Assembly (NCBI RefSeq): GCF_002761295.1
Contig: NZ_CP017881.1
Location: 979,069 to 1,043,068 of the forward strand
Origin: Methanohalophilus portucalensis
Lineage (GTDB): Archaea; Halobacteriota; Methanosarcinia; Methanosarcinales; Methanosarcinaceae
Reading direction: 5' to 3'
Length of the DNA: 64,000 nt
This document shows positions 3,981 through 18,669 of this stretch, in pieces. The translations under genes were made by a program, and so were the position numbers. Position 1 is the stretch's first letter. The number at the start of each line of letters is the position of its first letter. Under the pieces are notes generated by a model, which was not told the DNA's origin, made no database searches, and saw only the letters and a list, made by a program, of their open reading frames with translations.

Positions 3981-4925
3981 ATGGTGGATATGTTAAAATT
4001 TTTGTTAATATTATTTCTGGCAATTACATTTGTTATATTTCCGGCAGGTGCTGAAAATCTGTATTCTGCTGAAGAAAAACAAATGCTGGATTTGATCAAT
4101 GAAGAACGTGTCGAACAGGGTGTATCTCCTTTACAATTCAATTCTCTGTTAAATGAGGCGAGCAGTGCACATAGCAGGGAGATGATTGAAAATAATTATT
4201 TTGCTCATGATTCCTATGACGGCACATCTTACTGGCAGCGTCTGCAGGATTTCAATTATCAATCGAGCACAACAGCCGAAAATATCGCAATGACCGTTCC
4301 CTTTGATGTACAGAAAGCACATGAAAATCTAATGGCTTCTCCGGGGCACAGGGCTAATATCCTAAATCCTGATTATAATGAAGTTGGTATTGGGATCTGG
4401 GTGGGTGATTATACCTATAATGGGGTTACCTATTCCAATACAGCAATGTTCACACAGGATTTTGGGTGGAGTACCTCTGCTGCAGTAGATGAAAAAGAGC
4501 CCCTTTCAATAGAAAGTTGCAGTCCACAGGATGATTTTTCTTCAGATTCTGGAAGTATGCAGGAATTTGCTGTAACTACGAATCGACCATGCAATATACG
4601 TTGGCTGATAGATGGGGTTGAGGTCCAAGAGATAAATAACGAACAGACTTGCTCCTATACTACATCAAAATCTTCACCCGGTACCTATGAGATAAAGGTA
4701 ATAGCCGATGATGGAGTTTCTACAGATTACAGGGAGTGGTCCTGGACTGTAGTAGAGGAAGAAACTGCTTCCTCCTATCATGCTTACGACTTCAACCAGG
4801 ATTGTGTGATAGATACCAGTGAAGTCTCAAAAGCCATCGATGATTATTATGCCGGGAAATTAGATGTTGCGGCGATTTCTCAAGTAATCGATTACTGGTA
4901 CCTTGGTTCTGATGGATATTGCTGA
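3981..4925 (+). CDS. secreted CAP/SCP-domain protein with dockerin-like C-terminal module
   Basis: A 314-residue secreted protein. The signal peptide ends near PAGA (residue 24), and the ATG at 3981 follows AAGGAGATT. The CAP (SCP/PR-1) domain covers about 31-165 and has the expected conserved residues: His76 in FAHDSY, Glu100 in TAENIA, and His123 in SPGHRANILNP. A beta-rich Ig-like segment follows at about 175-258. The last 45 residues carry an EF-hand-like loop (DFNQDCVID) and two short helices, shared with the genes at 6791 and 7554. CAP proteins of prokaryotes act outside the cell, but their reactions are mostly unknown. It converges on the next gene over a shared terminator hairpin. Confidence 0.85.
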   Translation: MVDMLKFLLILFLAITFVIFPAGAENLYSAEEKQMLDLINEERVEQGVSPLQFNSLLNEASSAHSREMIENNYFAHDSYDGTSYWQRLQDFNYQSSTTAENIAMTVPFDVQKAHENLMASPGHRANILNPDYNEVGIGIWVGDYTYNGVTYSNTAMFTQDFGWSTSAAVDEKEPLSIESCSPQDDFSSDSGSMQEFAVTTNRPCNIRWLIDGVEVQEINNEQTCSYTTSKSSPGTYEIKVIADDGVSTDYREWSWTVVEEETASSYHAYDFNQDCVIDTSEVSKAIDDYYAGKLDVAAISQVIDYWYLGSDGYC

Positions 4926-4938
4926 TCTCTAAAAAAGA

Positions 4939-4965
4939 AAGAATGGATCTGATAAATCCATTCTT
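4939..4965. terminator. bidirectional terminator hairpin between convergent genes
   Basis: A perfect 10-bp stem (AAGAATGGAT at 4939-4948 paired with 4956-4965) encloses a 7-base loop, with A-rich and T-rich flanks on the two sides. It sits between the stop at 4925 and the opposing stop at 4964, which suits termination in both directions. Confidence 0.6.
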
Positions 4966-6688
4966 ATTTTTCTTTCCTTCTCAAACCCATTACACCAGCA
5001 AGTCCCAGCATTCCTATGATTAACAGAGGATTTGCAGTTGGCACTTCAAAATTGGGTTGCGAATCGTGTCCAAAGTAATGACTCATGTCTGAATCAGTTA
5101 CATTGGGTCCAATTGGTGGCACTCCTACAGCTGTAGCTGTGTTCTCATATTGACCCAAACTGGCAGTTGAATTTTCGGTCAATACCTGAGATTCACCAGG
5201 TTGCAACAATGGAATGGTTCCGATCAATCCAAGTTCATCATCGGTCACTTCAATATAGGTCAAATTGACATTACCGGTATTGGTAATATTGAAGTCCCAT
5301 ACAACTTCATAGTTCAATCGGATGTACGGTCCTGTCTTATTATCCGCATCCTCTCCATTGGTAGATTTTTCAATATCAATACCAGGGATCACTTCAAACA
5401 TTCCTGCATCGAAAGTCATATTGAAATCGGTTGTTTGCACGTCTATTTTCCCGGTCCTTCCCATAGCAGGATCAACGTCACTATCGTTTTCATTGTCAGT
5501 ACCCTGGTTTTCTGGACTGAAAATGTGGCCGGGCAGCAAATCGAATTCTATATAATACTCTCCGGCTGCAACACTGAAGTTATAGTAACCGCTTTCATTT
5601 GTTAATGTAGTTTCCAGGAGTGAGTCATCACTGAAGTTATATAGATAGACATTCACTCCTTCAATCCCCGGCTCACCAGCTTCCTGGATTCCATTGTTGT
5701 CTGCAGTATCATTCCACAGGAAATCCCCGATTGTTGCATTAACCCCCACATAGTGACTCGGATCTGAATCACTGACATTGGGCCCTGATGGAGGTGTACC
5801 TACTACAGTTGCATTGTTTGCATACTGTCCCAGGCCAGCAATTCCATTTGCTGTGAATTCCTGTGATTGGCCTGCCTGTAACAATGGGATGGTTGCGATG
5901 TGTCCAAGTTTGTCATCGGTTACATTGACATCTGTCAAATTGTAATAACCGGTATTAGTCACATTGTAGGTCCATTCAACATTGTTTCCATTAAGTACCA
6001 GTGGACCAGTTTTGCTGTCAGCATCTTCACCGTTGGTGTATTTCTCGATATCCACCATGGCACCTACTTCAATGAATAACAGTTGTTTACGTTCTTCTGA
6101 GGTTTCAAACGGATCAATTACCACGATTGCAATATCATTGTCACCCGGACAAAAACCAGTTCCGTTTACATTTGCATCATTGATAATATATTGAGATTCC
6201 GTTGTAAAAAATCCCTTATACTCAGGATCCGTATCTGTAAGGTTCCAGATTGCAGCCTGAACTTCCTTCCAGTCTGCTTTGGATGTTGAACTTAATTGAG
6301 AATCATAGGCTCCCTCACGGTATCTGTTAATTACATAATTGACCTTATCCCATTGTTCATCGTCATTCGCGTAGGGAGGCATTGAAGAATTCTCACTGCA
6401 ATAGACATTACTATCATACGATGTTTCAGGTGTAATGAATACTTCACTGTCGGTACACCAGCCAGTCCATGTCCCATTACTTATATCGTAACCTGCAGGA
6501 ACATCACTCAGTTGTATATCAAAATAATTCCCATTACTACCAGGTATAGTTTTTGCTTCGACCGTGATTATCGCTGAAGGGATCTCTACTGGACAACATT
6601 CTTCTGCCTCTGTATTTTCTGCAGTCGCTATTGAAATTATTGCAAAAATGATTGCAACTAATACGATTAGTTTTATTTTAGCCTTCAT
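4964..6688 (-). CDS. surface protein with SdrD-like domain, two conserved repeats and sorting tail
   Basis: A 574-residue secreted surface protein. The signal peptide covers residues 1-23. Residues about 30-205 form a Cys-containing N-terminal domain of unknown function. Two DUF11/DUF7507-like repeats begin with DIEKYTNGEDAD and DIEKSTNGEDAD, and between them lies an SdrD B-like domain (IGDFLWND...GIQEAGEPGIEGV). The end has a sorting signal: VPTANP, a hydrophobic helix and GLRRKEK, resembling PEF-CTERM tails processed by archaeosortase. The last repeat and tail are closely related to those of the gene at 11182, including a 140-bp identical DNA stretch. It probably decorates the cell envelope. 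Confidence 0.85.
   Translation of the reverse strand: MKAKIKLIVLVAIIFAIISIATAENTEAEECCPVEIPSAIITVEAKTIPGSNGNYFDIQLSDVPAGYDISNGTWTGWCTDSEVFITPETSYDSNVYCSENSSMPPYANDDEQWDKVNYVINRYREGAYDSQLSSTSKADWKEVQAAIWNLTDTDPEYKGFFTTESQYIINDANVNGTGFCPGDNDIAIVVIDPFETSEERKQLLFIEVGAMVDIEKYTNGEDADSKTGPLVLNGNNVEWTYNVTNTGYYNLTDVNVTDDKLGHIATIPLLQAGQSQEFTANGIAGLGQYANNATVVGTPPSGPNVSDSDPSHYVGVNATIGDFLWNDTADNNGIQEAGEPGIEGVNVYLYNFSDDSLLETTLTNESGYYNFSVAAGEYYIEFDLLPGHIFSPENQGTDNENDSDVDPAMGRTGKIDVQTTDFNMTFDAGMFEVIPGIDIEKSTNGEDADNKTGPYIRLNYEVVWDFNITNTGNVNLTYIEVTDDELGLIGTIPLLQPGESQVLTENSTASLGQYENTATAVGVPPIGPNVTDSDMSHYFGHDSQPNFEVPTANPLLIIGMLGLAGVMGLRRKEK
4977..5116 (-). repeat. 140-bp perfect inverted repeat, copy 1
   Basis: The reverse complement of this stretch is identical, base for base by my reading, to 11941-12080. 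It encodes the last repeat end and sorting tail of the surface protein. Similarity continues at a lower level to about 5390. Confidence 0.9.
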
Positions 6689-6790
6689 ACCGCCACCTCT
6701 ATAGTATATTTCTTGCTGGCACTATAAAGGATTACATGTACGAAGGATAAGAAAGAAAGTATAGGAACAATTATTTTTCCAAAACCAGTT

Positions 6791-7573
6791 TTAGCAATAT
6801 TTGTCCCCTGACAGGAAATAGTCTATCAACTGTGAGAGTTTATTGATGGAAAGATGGCCGGTAAAAAAGTCATCTATCCCTGCAGAAAGTTCTCCCATCT
6901 CAATTATGTAGTTCTGGTTTGCATCATATTCATTTTCGGGCGGGATTACGACTGGTTCCTCATATAGGGTAATTATCTCATTAATTTCACCAGCGCTTAA
7001 TTCAAATATCCCCGGTGGTATCGAATTAGTGGCATAAGTCTCTTCAAAGTAACCCTGTGTATCTGCCTTTATCGAGCTGGATGCATTAATGGTGAGGTTG
7101 ACAGTTGATTCTCCATCCTCTGCCTGTCCATCAATTATAATATCATAAGTTCCTGAAGGTACGTTTGATTGGGATACTGTTGCCACACCTGATTCAGCAT
7201 CTGCGCTCTTGGTAATCCAGAACAATATTTTAACCCGGACATTCAGGTCTTTAACGTTCTCGCCTCTCACCTGAAAAGTATTGGATCCATCGGGAATTTC
7301 AACATCATCTATCCTGTACTTGTAAGTGCCATCAGATACATTGACAGTTTGATTAAAAGAAACGGTTATATCGATTGATTCATCAGGTTGAGAAGTACCA
7401 TTTATTTTTATGTCCTCTCCCACAACCGGATAATCGGGATATACGGATAATTCTGTGACAGCAGCACTGGAGAGGGGTATTGCCACAGCAATCATAAGTA
7501 ATGCGTATAGTATTGCTATAAAAACTCTAGCACCGCTTCCGTGTGATTTACCGTTAGATGCGATAGTATTCAA
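6791..7573 (-). CDS. secreted beta-domain protein with dockerin-like C-terminal module
   Basis: A 260-residue protein. The frame opens with TTG at 7573, overlapping the upstream gene by 20 bases; the signal-peptide core (about residues 17-38) supports a start near there, but the exact codon is uncertain. The middle, about 39-205, is a beta-rich domain containing VVGEDIKINGTS and VPSGTYDIIIDG. A paralogue at 31030-31539 has this domain alone. The last 45 residues (NEYDANQNYIIEMGELSAGI onward, ending KYC) match the C-terminal modules of the genes at 3981 and 7554. Function is unknown; it is probably extracellular and co-expressed with its neighbour. Confidence 0.75.
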   Translation of the reverse strand: MNTIASNGKSHGSGARVFIAILYALLMIAVAIPLSSAAVTELSVYPDYPVVGEDIKINGTSQPDESIDITVSFNQTVNVSDGTYKYRIDDVEIPDGSNTFQVRGENVKDLNVRVKILFWITKSADAESGVATVSQSNVPSGTYDIIIDGQAEDGESTVNLTINASSSIKADTQGYFEETYATNSIPPGIFELSAGEINEIITLYEEPVVIPPENEYDANQNYIIEMGELSAGIDDFFTGHLSINKLSQLIDYFLSGDKYC

Positions 7574-8834
7574 CCCCTGATAGGTAGTAGGTTACAAATT
7601 CTGAAATTTCGACAATCGACAGATCCCCCACAAAGAAGTCGTCTATACATGCACTAAGTTCTTCCATTTCAATTGTATAATTTCCATTGATATCATAGGG
7701 GTTGTACGGGGCAACGAAGACGTCCTGCTGGCCGAATGCAACAACACCTTCCCCGGATTTGTATACTCCTGTAAGCAGGACGTATTTATCTTCCGGAAGG
7801 TCGGTTGTGGTTATACTGAGGCTGGTTTGGTTTGCCTCTACAGTTTTCATGATAATAGTCCCGTTATCAGGTCCTATCATTTCTATTATCTTATTCTGGA
7901 CATCATTGCGCTCAATATTGGAAGAGTCAATCCCCAGAAGGTTACATCCCTGGATCAGAGGGATATCATTCACTGTCAGATTAGTGCTGTCCTTTGAACC
8001 ATTGCATTGCATTTCAATATCGGCTTTGTACACACTATCCTTCACAAGGACTGCACCATAGGTATAACTGTTATCATTCGCAGCATTCTGCAGGCTGATG
8101 TCCACATTTATATTCTCATCCAGATCGACAGCTGGGGGCGCAGTTATTACGGAATCATATTCCAGTACTTCAAATCCTGTGGCAGAAAGGATGAAAGCAT
8201 CGTATTCCTGCATTTGGCTGGTATTGAGCAGCATAAGGGCCATGTAATCCCCGGCTTGCAGATCATTACATGTAACTTCAAGATCCCCATTTCCATCAAG
8301 TTGTTCGTTCGGGTATTTTTTGTATGCATTTTCAGTTAGATCATGTATACTTGCAAGGTCTGCATCTTTCAGATTTTGATTAATGTCGCTGATAACTCCC
8401 CGGTTTACATTGATGATGTAGAGTTCAACATCATCATGGGCAAACATGTCTGAACCATAAAACTCAAGCTCTACATCGTTCTGTCCGGGTATGTCGGTGA
8501 ACATTGAATGATTCGCAAAGGGATAGGTGACAGCATAATCGTCATCTGCATCCAGGGTTATATTTATGGATGCACTGCCATAATTGAAATCCGTTGCATT
8601 TATTCCCTGATAGGTAAAAGATATTGGATGTGGTAACCGGAATTCTTCTCCACCCTTAACAGCTATCCAGTTTCCCTCGGTGTCAGAACTTGTATGATTG
8701 GCAAATCCTATGCTTGCATCGTTAATTGTGATATTCCCTTCATAGGAATCCGCAACAGCAGTACTTCCCAGTCCAATTAGCAACAAGGTAACTATGAATG
8801 TATAACAGAATGCTTTAAGCCCCTTTGATCTCAT
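7554..8834 (-). CDS. secreted methanogen protein with dockerin-like C-terminal module
   Basis: A 426-residue secreted protein with a signal peptide at about 1-28 and an extended Asn/Asp-rich beta region at about 30-375. The C-terminal module shares YDxNxNYxIEMxELSAxIDDFF with the two neighbouring secreted proteins. I do not recognise a catalytic domain. The overlap with the downstream gene indicates one transcript. Number and size of the beta units suggest a surface-layer-associated protein, but no TM anchor or sorting tail is present, so retention may depend on the shared C-terminal module. Confidence 0.75.
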   Translation of the reverse strand: MRSKGLKAFCYTFIVTLLLIGLGSTAVADSYEGNITINDASIGFANHTSSDTEGNWIAVKGGEEFRLPHPISFTYQGINATDFNYGSASINITLDADDDYAVTYPFANHSMFTDIPGQNDVELEFYGSDMFAHDDVELYIINVNRGVISDINQNLKDADLASIHDLTENAYKKYPNEQLDGNGDLEVTCNDLQAGDYMALMLLNTSQMQEYDAFILSATGFEVLEYDSVITAPPAVDLDENINVDISLQNAANDNSYTYGAVLVKDSVYKADIEMQCNGSKDSTNLTVNDIPLIQGCNLLGIDSSNIERNDVQNKIIEMIGPDNGTIIMKTVEANQTSLSITTTDLPEDKYVLLTGVYKSGEGVVAFGQQDVFVAPYNPYDINGNYTIEMEELSACIDDFFVGDLSIVEISEFVTYYLSGVEYYRI

Positions 8835-8971
8835 GCCCTTTCCCCGTATTTATATTAAGAATGATTTTAACACATTACTAGCTTAGTTTCAATGTTATAT
8901 CATTGGTGAAGGGCCCAGATATAAACATACGAACCATTTATCAGGACGTTTGGTAAGGGGTTTCAGGATTA

Positions 8972-8994
8972 CAAACCGCTTAGTTGGCGGTTTG
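8972..8994. other. stem-loop upstream of a small gene
   Basis: An 8-bp perfect stem (CAAACCGC at 8972-8979 paired with GCGGTTTG at 8987-8994) and a 7-base loop lie about 100 bases before the small gene at 9096. It could be a terminator for an upstream transcript, a regulatory site, or a mobile-element end. Confidence 0.4.
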
Positions 8995-9095
8995 CATTGT
9001 TCAAATCATCAGGATTTGCTATTTTCAAAAAGAGCAGTTTTTGGGAACAAATATATTTATATAATTTATATATTAATATATACTTGGGGTTTTAT

Positions 9096-9374
9096 ATGAT
9101 TGCAGATTCGGTGGAGCCGATTGTGGAGAATATCCACTATAGTGATACGTTGATGTTCTATAATTCAAAGATAGCACGAGGAGCTCTGTCCTGTAGTACT
9201 GAAAAATCAGGACTTTGTGAGATTGATGAGAAATACGCAAATGTGTGTCGACAAGTCATGGATATCGCCATACAGGAAAATCGTGCACCTGCTGATTGTG
9301 TTAATCAGGTATGTTCAAGGCATGGCGTCGGAGTGAATGAACTTTTACAGGTCCTTGATGCAAATCTGGGGTAA
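9096..9374 (+). CDS. small hypothetical protein
   Basis: A 92-residue soluble protein. The ATG at 9096 is chosen because a GGGGT ribosome site ends six bases upstream and the sequence before it is very AT-rich promoter-like DNA. The protein has five Cys residues, mostly in the middle and C-terminal part, and ends in a helical segment (GVGVNELLQVLDANLG). I do not recognise the family. It converges on the broken pilin gene. Confidence 0.6.
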   Translation: MIADSVEPIVENIHYSDTLMFYNSKIARGALSCSTEKSGLCEIDEKYANVCRQVMDIAIQENRAPADCVNQVCSRHGVGVNELLQVLDANLG

Positions 9375-9428
9375 TGCGGGGATGTATAAAAATTTATATT
9401 CCAAAAAGAGATGGAAGATATTTGAATT

Positions 9429-10184
9429 TCAACTCTGACATTCCAATTTACTATCTTCCGTTGCCTTTCCTGTATATTCTTTGGCCGTAGCAGTTATCTT
9501 GCTTATCACAAAATAGTGGTCTGGTCCCAGAAAAGTAATTTCGACATTATCCCCGGCTTTCATTGGTCTCTCCCCTTCAAAATCAACCGGGTATCTCCCT
9601 TCTGTTGCAAAAAAAGGATGTTTGCCGACAACATCGATTTGGTTTGAACCTGATTCTACATATCGGAAACCCACTTCCTCCTTGGGAGTTTCTCCATCGT
9701 CTTGCCATTGATTATGGGCCATTTGAATTACCAGTCGGTCCCCTGCACTAAAGTCCCCTGTACAGAATTTACCTACATCTTCATCGTGATATTTTTGCTG
9801 GGTTTCTTCATCAAAATAGGTAGGATTCACAAACCTGAGTTCTCCTCCTTCTCCGCTGGAATTGGTCCATCGTATAATAATGGAGCCAATTTCATCACCT
9901 TTTACCTCCGGCCCGTGTAAATAATCCAGATATATCAAATCGATGTCCCCTTTTTCCGGACTGCTTCCAGAACCTGCCCAGTAATCTCTGTATTCAGCAC
10001 CCAGCAAGACTTCTGCCTTCTCAAAACCCATCTGTTAAGGAGGTTCTTTAAGTTTGTCAGTAATATCAAAAGCAGATATACCTATAACTGCTGCTAGAAT
10101 TATCGTAATGATCAACATAAGAATAATACCAACCGCAGGGACGATTCCATTGGTATCATTGGAGAGGTGAGGTTTGAGTTGCAT
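9429..10184 (-). pseudogene. archaeal type IV pilin-like gene interrupted by an in-frame TAA
   Basis: Reading from an ATG at 10184 gives a typical archaeal pilin N-terminus: a short leader, then GIVPAVGIILMLIITIILAA. After 49 residues there is a TAA at 10037-10035. Past it the same frame continues without a shift into a 200-residue beta-rich domain starting at the ATG at 10031. The downstream part lacks any secretion signal of its own. The fused product would be an ordinary class III signal/DUF1628-type pilin of about 250 residues. A single nonsense mutation, a sequencing error, or reinitiation at the nearby ATG are the choices. TAA is not a pyrrolysine codon. Confidence 0.7.
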
Positions 10185-10285
10185 GAATATAATTAATATA
10201 TAAATATTATTAATGTGTTTGGATGCTTTGCAATTTTTTGGGCAACCGAAATATTAAAGGTTGCCTGTTACAAAGCCTCTTTCAT

Positions 10286-10978
10286 ATGCCGATAGAAAAA
10301 ATACATCAGATGGGTAGAGAACTGTCTTCCAATCTCCAGTTGACCTATATGCCGGTAGCTGTAACATTGCTTACGGATAATCAACGTCCTCCTGAAGGAA
10401 TAAGTAGAATTGGGCACAATATGAGTCACTGTCAGATGGTGGATAAAGCAAGGCGAGACGGTTCCCAATTCTATTCACTGATAGACGATCAACAGTGCAA
10501 GAATGGGGCTGCTGTGATGGGTATGGGTCACATGCCTCCTGAATTTGCCAGTGGCAAAGAACATTACGATGAAGGCCACTACAGAACAATTGAATTGGCA
10601 AGAGATACCATACAACAATGTCCCAGGTTAGAGGCCAATTCCACAGAAGCAATCCTGTATGCGCCTTTGAGTGAAGCAAATTTTATTCCGGATGTTGTGA
10701 TTATTCTTGATATTCCAGAAAAAGCCATGCAGGTATCCCAATCTTTGCTGTATAATGTTGGAGGCAGCATTGATGCAAACTTTGCAGGGATATTGAGTCT
10801 CTGTGCAGACGGTGTGGTCAAACCCTACAAAAGTGGGAATATCAGTATTTCTTTAGGGTGTGTGGGCAGTCGCAATTGTGGAAATATTGCAAAAGATGAG
10901 ATGATAATAGGTATACCAATGGAAAAATTGCAGTATATAGTTGATGGTGCCAGGCGGATGTTCTCTTATTCTTCCTGA
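10286..10978 (+). CDS. DUF169 family protein
   Basis: A 230-residue soluble protein with the DUF169 (PF02596) pattern: an N-terminal segment on permitted ligand use (YMPVAVTLL), a Cys in SHCQMVDKAR, CKNGAAVMGM, then ILYAPLSEA and GCVGSRNCGNI near the end. The family is widespread in methanogens and anaerobes; its reaction is not established, though conserved Cys residues and neighbourhoods in other genomes suggest a role with metals or cofactors. The ATG at 10286 begins the family-typical start; upstream codons look non-coding. Confidence 0.8.
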   Translation: MPIEKIHQMGRELSSNLQLTYMPVAVTLLTDNQRPPEGISRIGHNMSHCQMVDKARRDGSQFYSLIDDQQCKNGAAVMGMGHMPPEFASGKEHYDEGHYRTIELARDTIQQCPRLEANSTEAILYAPLSEANFIPDVVIILDIPEKAMQVSQSLLYNVGGSIDANFAGILSLCADGVVKPYKSGNISISLGCVGSRNCGNIAKDEMIIGIPMEKLQYIVDGARRMFSYSS

Positions 10979-11181
10979 TTTTCAGAGCATTTTGAGAGTG
11001 AATTAATTGGATTGAGTGCCTGCCTGAATCTGCTGGATTTATTATACCTGAATATATTCTGATTTTTATCCAATTGCACTTTATATTTTTAGTTTAAATA
11101 CTAGTATACTTCTTTCGTACCTGTAGTTATTTAGACTTTTTATAATATTATTTTTCAATGTATTACTAATGAGGTGGTATT

Positions 11182-12093
11182 ATGAAAGCTATCTATAAAT
11201 TATTAGTATTTTTAACATTGTGTTTAATAACGACGGTCAGTTGTGCGAGTGCAAATGGATCGGATTCAGATACAGAACCTGCATTTGTTGGGTTACCCTG
11301 TCCTGCTGTTGAAGTTACAAAATATGTCTCTTCTGACAATTCCAGCTGGGAGGATGCAAATACAGCAGGAAGTGCCCTTCTTGTGGAATCCAATCAGGTC
11401 TACTGGAAGTATGTAGTAGAAAATGTAGGTGACGAACCACTTGTAGATGTAGAAGTGACTGATGATCAGCTTGATCCAGGTTTGATATGCACGATTGGAG
11501 ACCTTGGGGTCGGGGAAGAGGCCACCTGTTACGCAGATGATTATGTACCTGAAGACTGTCCATATGTTGACGGCGAGGTCTACAGGAACAATGGTACAGT
11601 TAATGGTGTAGGTTTGGTTACAGGAATTGTGGTCACAGACAGTGATCCGAGCTGCTATTTCGGTGCAGATCCTTCTGTTGATATCGAGAAATCTACCAAT
11701 GGAAAGGATGCAGATGAAGCACCTGGTCCATACATACGATTGAACTATGAAGTTGTATGGGAGTTCAATGTGACCAATACCGGTAATGTCAATCTGACCG
11801 ATATTGAAGTGACAGATGACAAACTTGGATTGATCGGCACAATTGAATTGTTACAGCCTGGTGAATCCTGTGTGTTGACCGAAAGTGGAACTGCCAGTTT
11901 GGGTCAATATGAGAACAATGCTACGGCCGTAGGCGTGGCTCCAATTGGACCCAATGTAACTGATTCAGACATGAGTCATTACTTTGGACACGATTCGCAA
12001 CCCAATTTTGAAGTGCCAACTGCAAATCCTCTGTTAATCATAGGAATGCTGGGACTTGCTGGTGTAATGGGTTTGAGAAGAGAACAGGAGTAA
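11182..12093 (+). CDS. surface protein with conserved repeat and sorting tail
   Basis: A 303-residue secreted protein preceded by GAGGTGGTATT. The signal peptide covers 1-24. Two DUF11/DUF7507-like repeats follow: a Cys-containing one (VEVTKYVSSDNSSW) and a second one (VDIEKSTNGKDAD) that is close kin of the last repeat in the protein at 4964-6688. The sorting tail (VPTANP, hydrophobic helix, GLRREQE) is identical to that protein apart from the last residues. It is presumably exported and processed by archaeosortase. The two genes face opposite ways and share a 140-bp identical stretch. Confidence 0.85.
   Translation: MKAIYKLLVFLTLCLITTVSCASANGSDSDTEPAFVGLPCPAVEVTKYVSSDNSSWEDANTAGSALLVESNQVYWKYVVENVGDEPLVDVEVTDDQLDPGLICTIGDLGVGEEATCYADDYVPEDCPYVDGEVYRNNGTVNGVGLVTGIVVTDSDPSCYFGADPSVDIEKSTNGKDADEAPGPYIRLNYEVVWEFNVTNTGNVNLTDIEVTDDKLGLIGTIELLQPGESCVLTESGTASLGQYENNATAVGVAPIGPNVTDSDMSHYFGHDSQPNFEVPTANPLLIIGMLGLAGVMGLRREQE
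11941..12080 (+). repeat. 140-bp perfect inverted repeat, copy 2
   Basis: Identical to the reverse complement of 4977-5116. The copies bracket about 6.8 kb in opposite orientation. The preceding 250 bases of each gene are also similar but carry many, mostly synonymous, changes, so the perfect block suggests recent gene conversion or recombination. Confidence 0.9.
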
Positions 12094-12108
12094 ATTGAGG
12101 AAGTATTA

Positions 12109-12137
12109 TCTCTTCTTCTTCTTCTTCTTTTTTATTT
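12109..12137 (+). terminator. pyrimidine-rich terminator tract
   Basis: A run of CTT triplets passing into T6 follows the stop at 12093. Archaeal transcription commonly ends at such T-rich tracts without a hairpin. Confidence 0.45.
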
Positions 12138-12250
12138 AAATTTAGATTGTTGATGAACACAGTCAATTATCGTATATAATTACGCAATTTTATATACTAT
12201 ATCTCTCTCAATATATCCCGATAATCATAAAATTGTCAGGATAATAGGAA

Positions 12251-13561
12251 ATGGCAGGCGTACTGGAAAACTTCTTTCATCTGAAAGAACACGGCACAGA
12301 TATAAAGACTGAAGTTATGGCCGGGCTTGTCACTTTCATGACAGTTGCCTACATTATAGTTGTCAATCCTGCTATTCTGGAAGCCGCAGGGATACCCTTT
12401 GGTCCTTCCCTGGTGGCTACAATCCTTTCTGCAGTATTCGGAACTCTCATTATGGGTGTCTATGCCAAAAAACCCATTGCGATTGCGCCATATATGGGAG
12501 AGAACGCTTTTGTTGCCTATACTGTGGTGGGAGTGCTGGGTTATCCATGGCAGACGGCACTGGGTGCAGTATTCATAAGCGGTGTCCTTTTTACGATTCT
12601 GACAATTTCAGGCTTCAGGGACAAGATGATCGATGCAGTTCCGAATAATCTCAAATACAGTTTTGTAGCCGGGCTGGGTCTGTTCATAACCTTTATCGGG
12701 CTTGTCAATGCAGGTATTGTTTCGCTGGGTGTGGAAGGCTCTCCCCTGCATGTAGGTGCTCTGGATACAATGCCTGTAGCCCTTGCTGTACTGGGATTTC
12801 TTTTGATCAGTGTCCTGATGATCAAAAATATCAAGGGCTCGATCCTGATAGGTATCATTGCTACAGCTCTTTTGGGATTTGTGACAGGTGTTTCCCATAC
12901 ACCGGATTCGATAGTTAGCATGCCGCCAAGTCTTGCACCCATTTTCCTGCAGCTGGATATTGTCGGGGCTCTGTCATGGGGTTTCTTTGCTGTGATCCTC
13001 ACAATGTTCACCATGGATCTGATGGATACGATGGGTACCCTCGTGGGTGTATCTATGGAGGCCGGATACATGGATGAAGAGGGTAATCTTCCTGATATGG
13101 AGAAACCTTTCCTTGCAGACTCCCTGGCCACAGTATTTGCAGCAATTGCCGGTACCACTACCACAGGTGCCTATATCGAATCCGCTACCGGTATAAAAGA
13201 GGGAGGCAGGACCGGGCTTACTGCAGTTGTGGTTGCACTTCTTTTCATGCTGGGCCTGTTCTTCTATCCACTCTTTTCAGCAATCCCGGCAGCCGCCACA
13301 GCTCCTGCATTGATAATTGTCGGTTTTCAGATGATGACATCGATAAAAAAGATAGATATGAATGATCTGACCGAGATGGTACCTGCAATGGCGGTTATAA
13401 TCCTGATGAGCTTTACCTATAATCTGGGAATTGGTCTGTGTGCAGGTTTTGTCCTGTTTCCCCTTTTTAAAGTGGTAAGTGGTAAGGGCAGTGAAGTCAA
13501 ACCAATAGCCTGGGGATTGTTTGTCCTGTGTACCCTGTTCTTTATATTCTATCCTTACTGA
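12251..13561 (+). CDS. NCS2/AzgA-like purine permease
   Basis: A 436-residue integral membrane protein with about 12-14 helices. Family motifs include the start HGTDIKTEVMAGLVTFMTVAY, APYMGENAFVAYTVV and TTTGAYIESATGIKEGGRTG, typical of the AzgA/GhxP branch of nucleobase:cation symporters that import adenine, guanine or hypoxanthine. Length matches the family. The neighbouring genes give no further substrate hint. Expression probably starts from the AT-rich region at 12.15-12.25 kb. Confidence 0.9.
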   Translation: MAGVLENFFHLKEHGTDIKTEVMAGLVTFMTVAYIIVVNPAILEAAGIPFGPSLVATILSAVFGTLIMGVYAKKPIAIAPYMGENAFVAYTVVGVLGYPWQTALGAVFISGVLFTILTISGFRDKMIDAVPNNLKYSFVAGLGLFITFIGLVNAGIVSLGVEGSPLHVGALDTMPVALAVLGFLLISVLMIKNIKGSILIGIIATALLGFVTGVSHTPDSIVSMPPSLAPIFLQLDIVGALSWGFFAVILTMFTMDLMDTMGTLVGVSMEAGYMDEEGNLPDMEKPFLADSLATVFAAIAGTTTTGAYIESATGIKEGGRTGLTAVVVALLFMLGLFFYPLFSAIPAAATAPALIIVGFQMMTSIKKIDMNDLTEMVPAMAVIILMSFTYNLGIGLCAGFVLFPLFKVVSGKGSEVKPIAWGLFVLCTLFFIFYPY

Positions 13562-13603
13562 ATATAATTGAGGCTATAAACTAGATGATAAGGGTAGAGC
13601 ATA

Positions 13604-14023
13604 ATGAATTCGACTATAAATTCTAAACTGGAATTATTAGGGCAATATATCGAGATTCTCAAAGGTTATCAGGATTACAGTATTGATGATATCGCTCAGG
13701 ACCACACCCTTAGAGGAGCAGTGGAAAGGTATCTGGAAGTTTCTCTCGAATGCATGATTGATATTGGAGAGATGATAATTTCCCGACAATCACTGAAAAA
13801 ACCCGAATCCTATAAAGAAATTCTTATCATTCTGGGTGACAATGGAATCTTGCCCCTGAATTTTTCCAGGAAAATCTCCCCTGCAGCAGATTTTAGAGGC
13901 GAACTTCTGCACATGTATGCCGATATTGATATGGAAAAAGTGTATCTTTCTTTGCAAAACCATCCAGATTATCTGGAGAAGTTTGCACGCTACATTAACC
14001 TCTATCTTGAAAGAAGGGATTGA
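13604..14023 (+). CDS. orphan HepT-like (DUF86/HEPN) protein
   Basis: A 139-residue helical HEPN protein with the diagnostic RX4HXY motif in RGELLHMY (about residues 105-112). HepT toxins of this family are RNases held inactive when a partner MNT nucleotidyltransferase (MntA) modifies the Tyr. No MNT gene adjoins it; the nearest is at 20025. It may be a lone survivor or a trans-acting pair member. The ATG follows AGGGTAGAG. Confidence 0.75.
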   Translation: MNSTINSKLELLGQYIEILKGYQDYSIDDIAQDHTLRGAVERYLEVSLECMIDIGEMIISRQSLKKPESYKEILIILGDNGILPLNFSRKISPAADFRGELLHMYADIDMEKVYLSLQNHPDYLEKFARYINLYLERRD

Positions 14024-14149
14024 ATTCTTAGGTCACTACACATTCTGTCAGATAGTTGATATTTTTGATTAGCAGGCAAATATGTGTTAATTACCTTCTC
14101 TTTTACTGAGACGACTGTCCATATCCCCTATTATTACTCATAATATACC

Positions 14150-14183
14150 ATTCAGTAATATACTACCCAGTAATATACTGAAT
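14150..14183. promoter_or_regulatory. operator-like repeat upstream of the glm operon
   Basis: CAGTAATATACT occurs twice as a direct repeat (14153-14164 and 14168-14179, spacing 15), and the whole is bounded by an inverted repeat ATTCAGTA/TACTGAAT. It lies about 130 bases before the operon start, in a 286-base gap with nothing else recognisable. A regulator-binding site is plausible. Confidence 0.4.
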
Positions 14184-14309
14184 AGTATACTTCTCAATGG
14201 GAAAGACTCACTTTCATGACAATATTAGAAGGAAGTCCATGATTTCCTTAAAGGATAATTCACTTCCAAAAGATAACCTATAAATTCTTTCACGTTTCAT
14301 GTTAATTCC

Positions 14310-15530
14310 ATGAAAGCCATCGTTCTTGCCGCAGGGGAAGGTGTCAGATGTACACCCCTCACAAATACCCGTTCAAAAGTCATGTTACCGGTAGCCAATC
14401 GTCCCATCCTGGAATACGTTATATCCTCGCTTGTGGATAACGGGATCGAGGATGTAGTGCTGGTTGTCGGTTATGAGAAGGAGAAGGTGATGAACTATTT
14501 TGGAGACGGGAATGATTTCGGGGCAAGAATTACTTATGTGGACCAGACTTCACAGTTGGGTACCGCTCATGCGATCAGTCAGGCCATCCCTGCACTTGGG
14601 GAGGATAATGGATCTTTCCTGGTACTCAACGGGGATAACATAATTGAAAAAGAAACTATCAGTAAACTAATCGCAGATCATGCAGGGGATGCCACCGTAC
14701 TAACCACTCCCCGGGAGAAGGTATGTGGATATGGAGTGGTCATGAGTGCTGCGGGAAAGGTAAAAGGCATTTTTGAAAAACCCAAACGCCAGATCAGTCA
14801 TATGATAAATACCGGTATCTATGCTTTTAATCGGGATATTGTTGCAGAGATAGAGAATACCGAGATCTCCGAGAGAGGGGAATATGAAATTACCCATACC
14901 CTGCAGAATATGGTGAAAGGGAACAGGGATGTCAGGGTCACTGTAACCAAGAACCTGTGGATGGATTCGGTGTATGCCTGGGATCTGCTTGATACCAATG
15001 CCAGACTGCTGGCAAGTTGTGAATCTGCTATCGAGGATACTGCCATAATTGATGATACCGCTACCCTGATAGGGGATGTGGAGATTGGAGAATATACGGT
15101 TATCAGGGCCGGGTCATATATCGTAGGACCGGTAAAGATCGGGGATAACTGTGATATCGGACCCCAGGTGACAATTTTGCCTTCCACCAGTATAGGGAAT
15201 AATGTATCGCTGGGTCCCTTTTCTTATATCCAGAACAGTATCCTGATGGATAATGTACGTGTGGATTCCCACAGCCATATCTCTGAAAGTATTATAGGGT
15301 TTAACTGCAATCTAGGTCCCTACTCCATCTGTGAAGTGGACAATGATGTGAATATCGAGATCGAGAATGAACTTGTGCCTGTGGAAAAAAGCGGCGTGGT
15401 TATCGGGGATGACTGTAAATTTGGTTCAAGGACCCTTACTGAGGCAGGCACTCTTGTGGGCAATAACTGTACCGTGCGATCGGGTACAACTGTGGATAGA
15501 CATCTGCCTGCAAATTCCACAGTACTGTGA
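14310..15530 (+). CDS. GlmU-like sugar-1-phosphate nucleotidylyltransferase/acyltransferase
   Basis: A 406-residue two-domain enzyme. The N-terminal nucleotidyltransferase domain has the signature LAAGEGVRCTPLT, with Cys where Met is usual, then SKVMLPVANRP and LNGDN. From about residue 245 a left-handed beta-helix of hexapeptide repeats (IGDVEIGEYTVI) forms the acetyltransferase domain. Archaeal relatives join UTP or dTTP to GlcNAc-1-P or glucose-1-P, and may acetylate GlcN-1-P. It opens a tightly packed operon with GlmS and GlmM, so a role in UDP-GlcNAc synthesis is likely. No clear ribosome site precedes the ATG. Confidence 0.87.
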   Translation: MKAIVLAAGEGVRCTPLTNTRSKVMLPVANRPILEYVISSLVDNGIEDVVLVVGYEKEKVMNYFGDGNDFGARITYVDQTSQLGTAHAISQAIPALGEDNGSFLVLNGDNIIEKETISKLIADHAGDATVLTTPREKVCGYGVVMSAAGKVKGIFEKPKRQISHMINTGIYAFNRDIVAEIENTEISERGEYEITHTLQNMVKGNRDVRVTVTKNLWMDSVYAWDLLDTNARLLASCESAIEDTAIIDDTATLIGDVEIGEYTVIRAGSYIVGPVKIGDNCDIGPQVTILPSTSIGNNVSLGPFSYIQNSILMDNVRVDSHSHISESIIGFNCNLGPYSICEVDNDVNIEIENELVPVEKSGVVIGDDCKFGSRTLTEAGTLVGNNCTVRSGTTVDRHLPANSTVL

Positions 15531-15539
15531 GGGGATATT

Positions 15540-17360
15540 ATGTGCGGAATTGTAGGATATGTGGGAAAGACCGGTGCTTCATTGGTAATCATGGATTGCC
15601 TGCGTCGATTGGAGTACAGGGGTTATGATTCTGCCGGGTTAAGTGTATTAAACGGTGATCTGCAGACGTACAAGACTGCCGGCAGTATCGGTGAACTTGA
15701 TAAAGTATTGCCTGCAGAGATCGAAGGTAATATCGGGATTGGGCATACACGCTGGGCCACACATGGGATACCCAATGATGTCAATGCTCATCCGCACTGT
15801 TCTTCGGATATCGTGGTCGTACACAACGGCATCATTGAGAATTACCTCAAATTGCAGGAATGGCTGGAAGCTGAAGGTTATGAATTTGTATCCGATACCG
15901 ATACCGAGGTAATTGCCCATCTGGTGCATTTTTACAGTAATTCCCTGGACCTGTTCGAGGCAGTGCGCAAAAGCATGACAGTGCTGGAAGGCTCCTATGC
16001 GATCGCGGTTATGAGTAAGAATGATCCGGATACATTGATCGCTGCCAGAAAAGACAGTCCCCTGATAGTGGGCCTGGGGGAGAATGAATTTTTCACGTCC
16101 TCTGATGCCACGGCTTTTGTGTCTCATACCCGCAACGTGGTATTTGTGGATGACCGGGAGCTCGTGAAACTGACTCCTGAGAAGGTGGAGTTCTATGATA
16201 TGGACGGCCAATTGCTGGAAAAGCAGGTTTCCACAATCGATTGGGATGTGGAGGCGGCGGAAAAGAGTGGGTATGCACATTTCATGCTCAAAGAGATCCA
16301 TGAGCAGACCCGTTCATTGCAAAAAACCTTTGCCGGCAAGTTATCAGAACTTGAAGGCAATGTCCAATTACCTGAGCTCAAACTTACAGATGACCAGATC
16401 AGAAATATTGGCAGGGTGGAGATTATTGCCTGTGGCACGTCCTGGAATGCCGGATTGTTTGGCAAATATCTGCTTGAAGGACTGGCCGGTATACATACCG
16501 ATGTCAGTGCAGCCTCGGAGTTTCGGTACCGGGATCCAGTGATGGATTGCAATACCCTTACCATTGCAATCACTCAGTCCGGAGAGACGGCCGATACGCT
16601 GGCTGCGATCCGCAATGTGGCACAGTATGAATCAAGTACCATCGCGATAACCAATGTGGTCGGCAGCACCATTACCCGGGAGGCTGAAAATGTAGTGTAT
16701 ACCCATGCAGGCCCTGAGATCGGAGTGGCTGCGACCAAGACGTTTACGGCTCAATTAATAGCGCTGTATCTGCTGGCTGTATATATGGGCAGACGCAGGA
16801 ATTATCTTTTGCCGGATGAAGCAAAGGCTATAATCAAAAATCTCAAGGAACTACCCGGCAATGTGCAGCAGGTATTGAACCAGAGGGATATTATACGCAA
16901 GTATGCAGCCCGGTATGCGGCCAACCGGGATTATTATTTCATTGGCAGGGGACTTAATTACCCGGCGGCACTGGAAGCGGCTTTGAAACTCAAGGAAATA
17001 TCCTATATCCATGCGGAAGGTTATGCTGCAGGCGAACTGAAACACGGGCCCCTGGCCCTGCTGGAAAACGGCACGCCCGTGGTGGCGATCGTTACAAAGG
17101 GGCGAACCTATGAAAAAATGTTGAGCAATATCAAGGAAGTCAAGGCACGCGGAGCTGAAGTGATTGCAGTGGCCGATCAAGGAGATCGGGAGATAGGCAA
17201 GTATGCCGATATTGTGATCCCGGTACCTGCTACCAATCCCCTGCTATCACCCGTCCTGTCCTCGGTGGCTTTGCAGCTGCTTGCCTATTATACGGCTCTG
17301 GAAAAGAGTTGTGAGATCGATAAACCGCGCAATCTGGCCAAAAGTGTGACTGTGGAATGA
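15540..17360 (+). CDS. glmS: glutamine--fructose-6-phosphate aminotransferase
   Basis: A 606-residue enzyme making glucosamine-6-phosphate from fructose-6-P and glutamine, the entry step to amino-sugar nucleotides. The glutaminase domain starts directly with the catalytic Cys2 (MCGIVGYVG) and has GHTRWATHG and HNGIIENY. Two SIS domains follow, with CGTSWNAG and TQSGETADT in the first and [18 protein letters not shown] in the second, ending in the typical KSVTVE. It starts nine bases after the preceding stop. Confidence 0.97.
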
Positions 17361-17373
17361 AGGAGTGTATGAA

Positions 17374-18669
17374 TTGAAACTTTTCGGATCATCGGGAATC
17401 AGGGGACCGGCCAATAAGGTAATCGGTCCCGAACTGGCATTGAATGTGGGTATGGCCGTGGGTACAGTTGCCGATTCGGTTGTGGTCGGTAAGGATCCCC
17501 GTATCTCGGCGGATATGATTGAGCAGGCCTTGATCGCAGGACTGTCTGCCACCGGCTGTGAAGTAACCCTGGGAGGATTGATGAGTACACCCACTCTGGC
17601 TTTTGCCACCGCGGATTATGATTGCGGGATTATGATCACGGCTTCCCATAACCCTGCAGAAGATGTGGGGATCAAGTTATGGAATCCCGATGGCATGGCT
17701 TTTGATTCGCAGCAGCAAAAACGGATTGAACATATTATTGAGAATAACGAGTATGCAACCGTTGTCTGGAATGAAGTGGGGGCTGTGAAGTATGAGGAAG
17801 GTTTTGTTGAGCGGCACTGCAATGCAATCTTGAGCAAGATGCAATCTTCTCACAAACGTGTGGTTGTGGACTGTGGTTGCGGGGCTGGAAGTACAATCAC
17901 TCCTTATCTACTCCGGAAACTGGGTTGCGAGGTAATTACATTGAACTGCCAGCCGGATGGATATTTCCCGGCACGCAATCCCGAACCAGTGGAAAAAAAC
18001 CTGGGTCAACTGATCAAGGCAGTGGTGGCGTTTGAGGCGGATATCGGGATTGCGCATGACGGTGATGCGGATCGAATGATGGTTGTGGATGAGCAGGGTA
18101 ATTTTGTCTCGGGGGATGAATTGCTTGCCCTGTTTGCCCTGCAGGACAAACAGGAAAAAGTTGTGGTGCCTGTGGATACTTCCATGATAGTGGATGATGC
18201 GCTTGGGGATACCGAGGTGCTGCGCTGCAGGGTTGGGGATATATATGTGGCAGAACAGATCAAGGCTTCAGGTGCTTATTTTGGAGGCGAGCCTTCAGGC
18301 AGCTGGATTTTCCCGGACGTATCGTATTGTCCCGATGGTATCTATGCAGCAGCCCGCATTGTGAATTTGATTGCAGACAGCTCGTTATCAAAGATGGTTG
18401 CGGATCTGCCTCATTATCCCACCCTCAGAGGTACGATCGAATGTCCCGAGGACAGGAAGGAACAGGCGATGCAGCAGATCAAACAATCCCTGGAAATGAT
18501 GGGAGATGTTACTACCATTGATGGAGTTCGGGTGGATCTGGAGGATGGCTGGGTGCTTGTGCGGCCTTCAGGTACCGAATCCAAGATCCGGATCACTGCC
18601 GAGGCCAGGAAGGATGTGGATGATTTGTTTGGTGAAGCAGTATGTATTGCAAGGGGTGCAATACAGTGA
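17374..18669 (+). CDS. glmM: phosphoglucosamine mutase (GlmM-like phosphohexomutase)
   Basis: A 431-residue alpha-D-phosphohexomutase. I prefer the TTG at 17374, which gives the family start [11 protein letters not shown] and stands six bases after GGAGTG; a GTG at 17365 is possible. The phosphoserine loop reads TASHNP, the metal loop DGDADR, the sugar-binding loop GGEPSGSW and the phosphate-binding loop [10 protein letters not shown]. It interconverts GlcN-6-P and GlcN-1-P, linking GlmS with the GlmU-like enzymes on either side. Confidence 0.92.

Follow-up and report, generated by a model that had tools for sequence, protein, structure and literature searches.

Two genes for predicted surface proteins of Methanohalophilus portucalensis, here named g1 and g2, carry the two copies of a perfect inverted repeat, which raises the question of whether the DNA between them works as an invertible switch or whether the repeat has another origin. 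The genes lie in the window, the whole stretch of 64,000 nucleotides that was analysed (contig NZ_CP017881.1, positions 979,069 to 1,043,068), whose own numbering is used below and in Table 1. A sequence-only reading of the window had proposed that recombination between the copies inverts the intervening segment or exchanges N-terminal parts of the two proteins, so that the cell surface varies, and that gene conversion accounts for the sharp block of identity. The comparisons presented here make it probable that the repeat reflects ectopic homologous recombination between paralogues of an anchor tail, leading to conversion and occasional inversion, and not phase variation. The sequences of g1 and g2 mark them as paralogues that code for surface proteins with a VPXXXP-CTERM anchor tail; their bodies differ, and a 3' module is common to both.

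The identical block and its origin

The two copies of the block are exact reverse complements at 140 of 140 positions, as had been reported, and lie at the C-terminal (3') end of each gene. They are nested in an inverted homology of 423 nt that is 88% identical, and the 52 mismatches of this homology fall into 46 of the 270 positions on the upstream side, 6 of the 13 outermost positions and none within the block, in agreement with the earlier description of similar but diverged coding flanks. When 52 mismatches were placed randomly over the 423 positions, a clean run of at least 140 was obtained in 0 of 20000 trials. The g1 and g2 tails also had the longest exact run among the 231 pairs formed by 22 VPxxxP-type tails of five Methanohalophilus genomes, a collection that comprises only the tails lying in the loci fetched for the analysis and fitting a simple pattern; the second-longest run was 97, with its partners in two different genomes. 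As for the layout, the genes do point in opposite directions and enclose a segment of 6.8 kb, but they diverge, so that the tails flank the segment on the outside and the bodies, which are not shared, fall within it; the shared part is C-terminal.

A DNA search was performed over eight genomes of the genus, that of M. portucalensis included. Some match was found in seven of the eight, and full-length g1 in four, namely M. portucalensis itself, an M. halophilus-like genome (G002), an M. mahii-like genome (G004) and strain RSK (G006); a contig search with g1 returned one relative, strain RSK. Polymorphism was analyzed in six genes, drawn from four genomes, over their last 432 coding nucleotides (15 pairs, 122 polymorphic sites). 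The window genes g1 and g2 have 28 consecutive polymorphic sites in common, and none of 5000 shuffles gave so long a run; p 0.04, uncorrected, was the lowest value among the remaining 14 pairs. The tract is closer within the genome than to its orthologues, with 0 differences in 140 positions between g1 and g2, compared with 6 to 14 of 47 third positions that distinguish window g1 from the other four g1 copies over the same stretch. The earlier attribution of the sharp 140-bp block to gene conversion is thus supported, both by the 28 shared sites and by the step from 46/270 to 0/140 at its border, and conversion is very probably its best explanation. The 3' module that g1 and g2 have in common measures about 423 bp. 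In the mechanism that we propose, 140 bp of it, in the tail, became identical through recent ectopic gene conversion, a short copying step in one direction only that needs no more than ordinary homologous recombination.

The ends of the genes are of two types (L and R) according to their last codons and 3' flanks, and the tails give a hint on the direction of copying. The tail of window g1 is 95% identical to that of RSK g1, an ordinary divergence, and the tail of window g2 is only 82-83% identical to that of the sole other R-type gene, G004 g1. This favours g1 as donor, and copying from g1 to g2 appears the likelier direction, with one comparator behind it.

A second inverted pair of genes with VPxxxP tails was found in G002 (L050:1244-2830, minus strand, and 13342-15138, plus strand). 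Its arms are 96% identical over 576 nt at the 5' ends and 88% identical over 339 nt at the tails, with diverged middles, which points to repeated exchange of this kind in the genus. The products of this pair are asparagine-rich repeat proteins that look NosD-like by eye.

Two considerations weigh against the explanation given here. Weak mosaic signals also link g2 with G006 g1 (p 0.05) and with G002 g1M, a further g1-type copy (p 0.04), although these values are uncorrected for 15 pairs and unconvincing alone. In addition, assembly or polishing could have created a false identity block, the reads of one copy having overwritten the other: the length of the block is similar to that of a read, and MiSeq drafts are reported in the paper on these genomes (PMC6491703). 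There is no direct evidence for such an artefact, and sharp stretches of identity also occur in the inverted pair of G002, a genome that may however stem from the same project; we regard an artefact as improbable.

The block might likewise be kept identical by purifying selection, acting either on the sorting tail or on some element in it at the RNA or DNA level, and the protein sequence of the tail is indeed strongly conserved among the copies. However, the third-position differences given above indicate that the DNA of the block is not frozen by selection on the protein; moreover, the two window copies have states in common that none of the other four g1 copies has, and their identity stops sharply on both sides, so that this explanation is quite improbable. 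A very recent partial duplication of the 3' module, in which one gene obtained its tail from the other and no conversion followed, would agree with the common module and the different bodies but is highly unlikely, because the sequence beside the block is already 17% diverged (46/270) and each of the two types of last codons and flanks recurs in a further species, which makes the module older than the identical block.

Table 1. Coordinates of the inverted homology, the genes and the 3' flanks of the g1/g2 locus in the window
Feature	Position	Strand	Remarks
Left copy of 140-bp block	4977..5116	-	exact match; encodes part of the ~50 residues at the g1 C-terminus
Right copy of 140-bp block	11941..12080	+	exact match; C-terminal part of g2
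Left arm of 423-nt inverted homology	4964..5386	-	88%; DUF7507 repeat and VPXXXP-CTERM tail
Right arm of 423-nt inverted homology	11671..12093	+	88%; DUF7507 repeat and VPXXXP-CTERM tail
g1, 574 aa	4964..6688	-	N-terminal domain with TED-like motifs, DUF11/DUF7617-like repeat (sub-threshold), SdrD_B, DUF7507, VPXXXP-CTERM
g2, 303 aa	11182..12093	+	short body, DUF7507, VPXXXP-CTERM; R-type last codons
L-type 3' flank	4939..4965	.	hairpin terminator-like site between the convergent CAP gene and g1; pattern match only; common to L-type copies
R-type 3' flank	12094..12250	+	between g2 and permease; common to the G004 g1 copy
CAP-domain secreted protein gene	3981..4925	+	left anchor of the synteny comparison
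secB (6791-7573) and secA (7554-8834, TIGR04279), secreted-protein pair	6791..8834	-	
Pilin gene remnant	9429..10031	-	frame extends upstream, cut by one in-frame stop
DUF169 gene	10223..10978	+	
Permease (Xan_ur_permease)	12251..13561	+	right anchor of the synteny comparison

The proposed inversion of the segment and the inverted order of a neighbouring block

The proposal of a working switch, in which the repeat flips positions 4977-12080 and thereby varies the cell surface, draws on the perfect inverted repeat within two surface-protein genes and on an inversion through similar tails that seems to have occurred next to the locus in the genus (see below). In an in silico inversion of this segment, however, the lengths of g1 (574 residues) and g2 (303 residues) stayed the same, and only the last three residues of each protein were exchanged. 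Since both gene starts lie inside the segment, the promoters should move along with their genes. A flip would switch neither product nor promoter, which leaves the surface-varying inversion unsupported, and we rejected it. No tyrosine recombinase (PF00589) was found in the window, and the nearer of the two in the genome lies about 204 kb away (serine and other recombinase families were not searched); presumably, no dedicated recombinase acts. Furthermore, the segment is inverted in none of the three relatives that have the locus, as the order CAP-g1-secB-secA is kept in G006 and G002, and secB-secA in G004. A functioning switch is therefore very improbable.

The gene orders, read from the CAP gene to the permease, nevertheless differ. 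In the window, the order is CAP(+), g1(-), secB(-), secA(-), orf125(+), pilin(-), DUF169(+), g2(+), permease(+). In G006 it is CAP(+), g1(-), secB(-), secA(-), followed by a permease that lacks its 125 N-terminal residues. G002 has CAP(+), orf251(-), g1L(-), secB(-), secA(-), g1M(-), orf125(+), pilin(-), an open reading frame that we take to be peroxiredoxin-like, the opp cluster(-) and permease(+), and G004 has CAP(+), secB(-), secA(-), opp cluster(+), g1(+), permease(+). The name opp refers here to a peptide-transporter-like cluster, named by inspection of its translations. Between the same two anchors, the cluster is inverted in G002 relative to G004 and is 91% identical over 6.6 kb (H, that is G002, 10822-17455 against M, that is G004, 12690-6040).

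The g1-type copies next to this cluster bear on how it was inverted. G002 g1M and G004 g1 have 240 bp of upstream sequence in common, including a secB-like remnant, at 84% identity, compared with 137 bp for window g1 and g1M and 151 bp for the left copy of G002 and G004 g1; they are apparently the same copy. Their ends differ: that of G002 g1M is L-type, like those of the left copies, with RRKEK and the hairpin flank, and that of G004 g1 is R-type, like that of window g2, with RREQE and, as far as the permease, an identical type of flank. In G004 g1, private differences rise from 0.028 per site before about nucleotide 790 to 0.088 after it (as strong a jump in 0 of 300 shuffles), and none of the other four copies has so strong a jump, as would be expected if the 3' half had come from elsewhere.

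It is likely that inverted tail homologies occasionally cross over instead of converting. A crossover between the tail of g1M, the third copy, and that of a tail gene on the permease side would invert exactly the opp block and give the observed junction, with the g1 body joined to the other tail and flank; the exchange presumably fell inside the homologous 3' regions. We lean towards the view that the neighbouring block, a g1-type gene together with the peptide-transporter cluster, was inverted through the tails in this way. Three points count against it. The second junction is missing in G004, where about 260 bp of unrelated sequence are found and no L-type terminator. A tail gene next to the permease is lacking in G002, the ancestral partner having been deduced from the window and G004. 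Finally, over the 3' region that they share, window g2 and G004 g1 are 81.9% identical, no closer than window g2 and the other g1 copies (84.5-87.3%), and window g2 and G004 g1 are grouped only by their last codons and flank. As to the polarity of the inversion, no outgroup was available among G001, G003, G005 and G007, none of which matched the opp-permease block at 1e-60. The earlier suggestion that the tails can recombine thus stands in part, through the neighbouring block and the tail swap predicted at one of its junctions, and not for the window segment itself, which is uninverted in the three relatives. The expected outcome of conversion with occasional crossover would be a slow homogenisation of the conserved anchor and a turnover of gene order.

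It is important to mention some further features of these loci. No inverted repeats of at least 60 bp were found in the relatives' loci that match the window (L039, L041, L042). RSK (L042:8152-9102) lacks the counterpart of window positions 8968-12610, about 3.6 kb, together with the first 125 residues of the permease, owing to either a deletion or an assembly error. In G002, a stretch like window positions 9038-9091 (54 bp) is present on both sides of g1M (L039, 11700-13427) and resembles a target duplication, although it is AT-rich. The pilin gene of the window (9429-10260, minus strand) is broken by an in-frame stop between a pilin-like N-terminus and a remainder of 200 aa; its homologue in G002 is a single frame of 251 aa with Pfam Pilin_N.

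Sorting tail and N-terminal domain

The tails of g1 and g2 scored 44.4 and 46.4 bits with the VPXXXP-CTERM model TIGR04143 (cut-off 30), and six such tails were found in the whole genome. The genome also has an archaeosortase B gene (L044:4780-5199; 279 bits with TIGR04144, cut-off 150), which adjoins two of the six tail genes and lies about 542 kb from the g1/g2 locus. Archaeosortase B would accordingly be expected to process both tails, as in the known VPXXXP-CTERM/archaeosortase B system (TIGR04143/TIGR04144), with which the locus agrees in having two tails above the cut-off and the sortase gene in the same genome; nothing in the g1/g2 tail itself departs from that system. Archaeosortase D (TIGR04175) was discarded as a partner, as the search gave no match, and a candidate for the ArtE model (TIGR04124) proved to be the archaeosortase B gene. 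One of the two tail genes next to archaeosortase B (region L044:206-5199) contains a long array of similar repeats.

The stalk domains SdrD_B and DUF7507 of g1 scored above their cut-offs. Its N-terminal region (residues 25-230; window 5999-6616, minus strand) resembles a thioester domain (TED, PF08341), below the gathering score of 22: window g1 reached 15.7 bits and G004 g1 16.6 bits, and the other four of six scanned proteins gave no match. The motif reported for this domain is a conserved Cys with a QxxPhiW helix (PMC4450167), and an alignment of six sequences, one of them a distant homologue from G048, shows no variation in W-C and QxAxW. This homologue (L084:1258-2817) adjoins an archaeosortase B gene. 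Two AlphaFold models had mean pLDDT (predicted local distance difference test) values of only 32 and 33, too low for a reliable fold, and a PDB sequence search gave chance-level matches only. The region is thus a putative, unproven thioester domain, to be taken as a lead. In its SdrD_B and DUF7507 stalk and its W-C and QxxxW motifs, g1 is similar to the TED adhesins with isopeptide stalks described in PMC4450167 and PMC12617251; it differs in scoring below the Pfam cut-off for TED and in lacking a reliable fold, and its bond-forming residues are only putative.

Relation to known systems and significance

Gene conversion has been described in polyploid archaea and in gene families, with tracts of a few hundred nucleotides in bacterial gene families (PMC8223754), and among methanogens concerted evolution is documented for mtrA-1/mtrA-2 (PMC4632066). 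The g1/g2 pair agrees with these cases in that a short tract of two paralogues of one genome is closer than to the orthologues while the rest is distinct; it differs in that the tract is the sorting tail of surface proteins, lies in inverted orientation and is accompanied by an apparent rearrangement of gene order. The likeness to known inversion systems is more limited. In Haemophilus influenzae, the paralogous adhesin loci HMW1 and HMW2 also form the ends of an inversion, but the sites lie in promoter regions and exchange promoters (PMC10127715), whereas the g1/g2 block is at the 3' end and exchanges neither expression nor protein. The Ureaplasma mba/UU172 elements likewise have inverted repeats inside surface-protein genes, and chimeric genes are reported there; their repeats, however, are short, one of them lies in the 5' sequence of a gene, and the observed switching is attributed to site-specific recombination (PMC3047005), features not seen in the g1/g2 pair. 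The words inversion and rearrange are absent from the available text of the paper on these genomes (PMC6491703).

A wider and much more tentative proposal, which at present we consider unlikely, is that the end of the VPXXXP-CTERM tail forms a portable island of homology in Methanohalophilus. Through inverted and direct copies of it, cassettes of surface proteins would be duplicated, swapped and inverted, the repertoire would be remodelled via the anchor, with a would-be archaeal thioester adhesin among the cargo, and g1-type bodies would move between left, middle and right sites.

The g1/g2 locus offers a worked case of what is probably ectopic gene conversion between surface-protein paralogues of a methanogen, and it suggests that the conserved anchor tail may be the recombining unit. 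The locus also corrects a tempting reading, since a perfect inverted repeat that is limited to the 3' ends of two surface genes does not amount to a phase switch.

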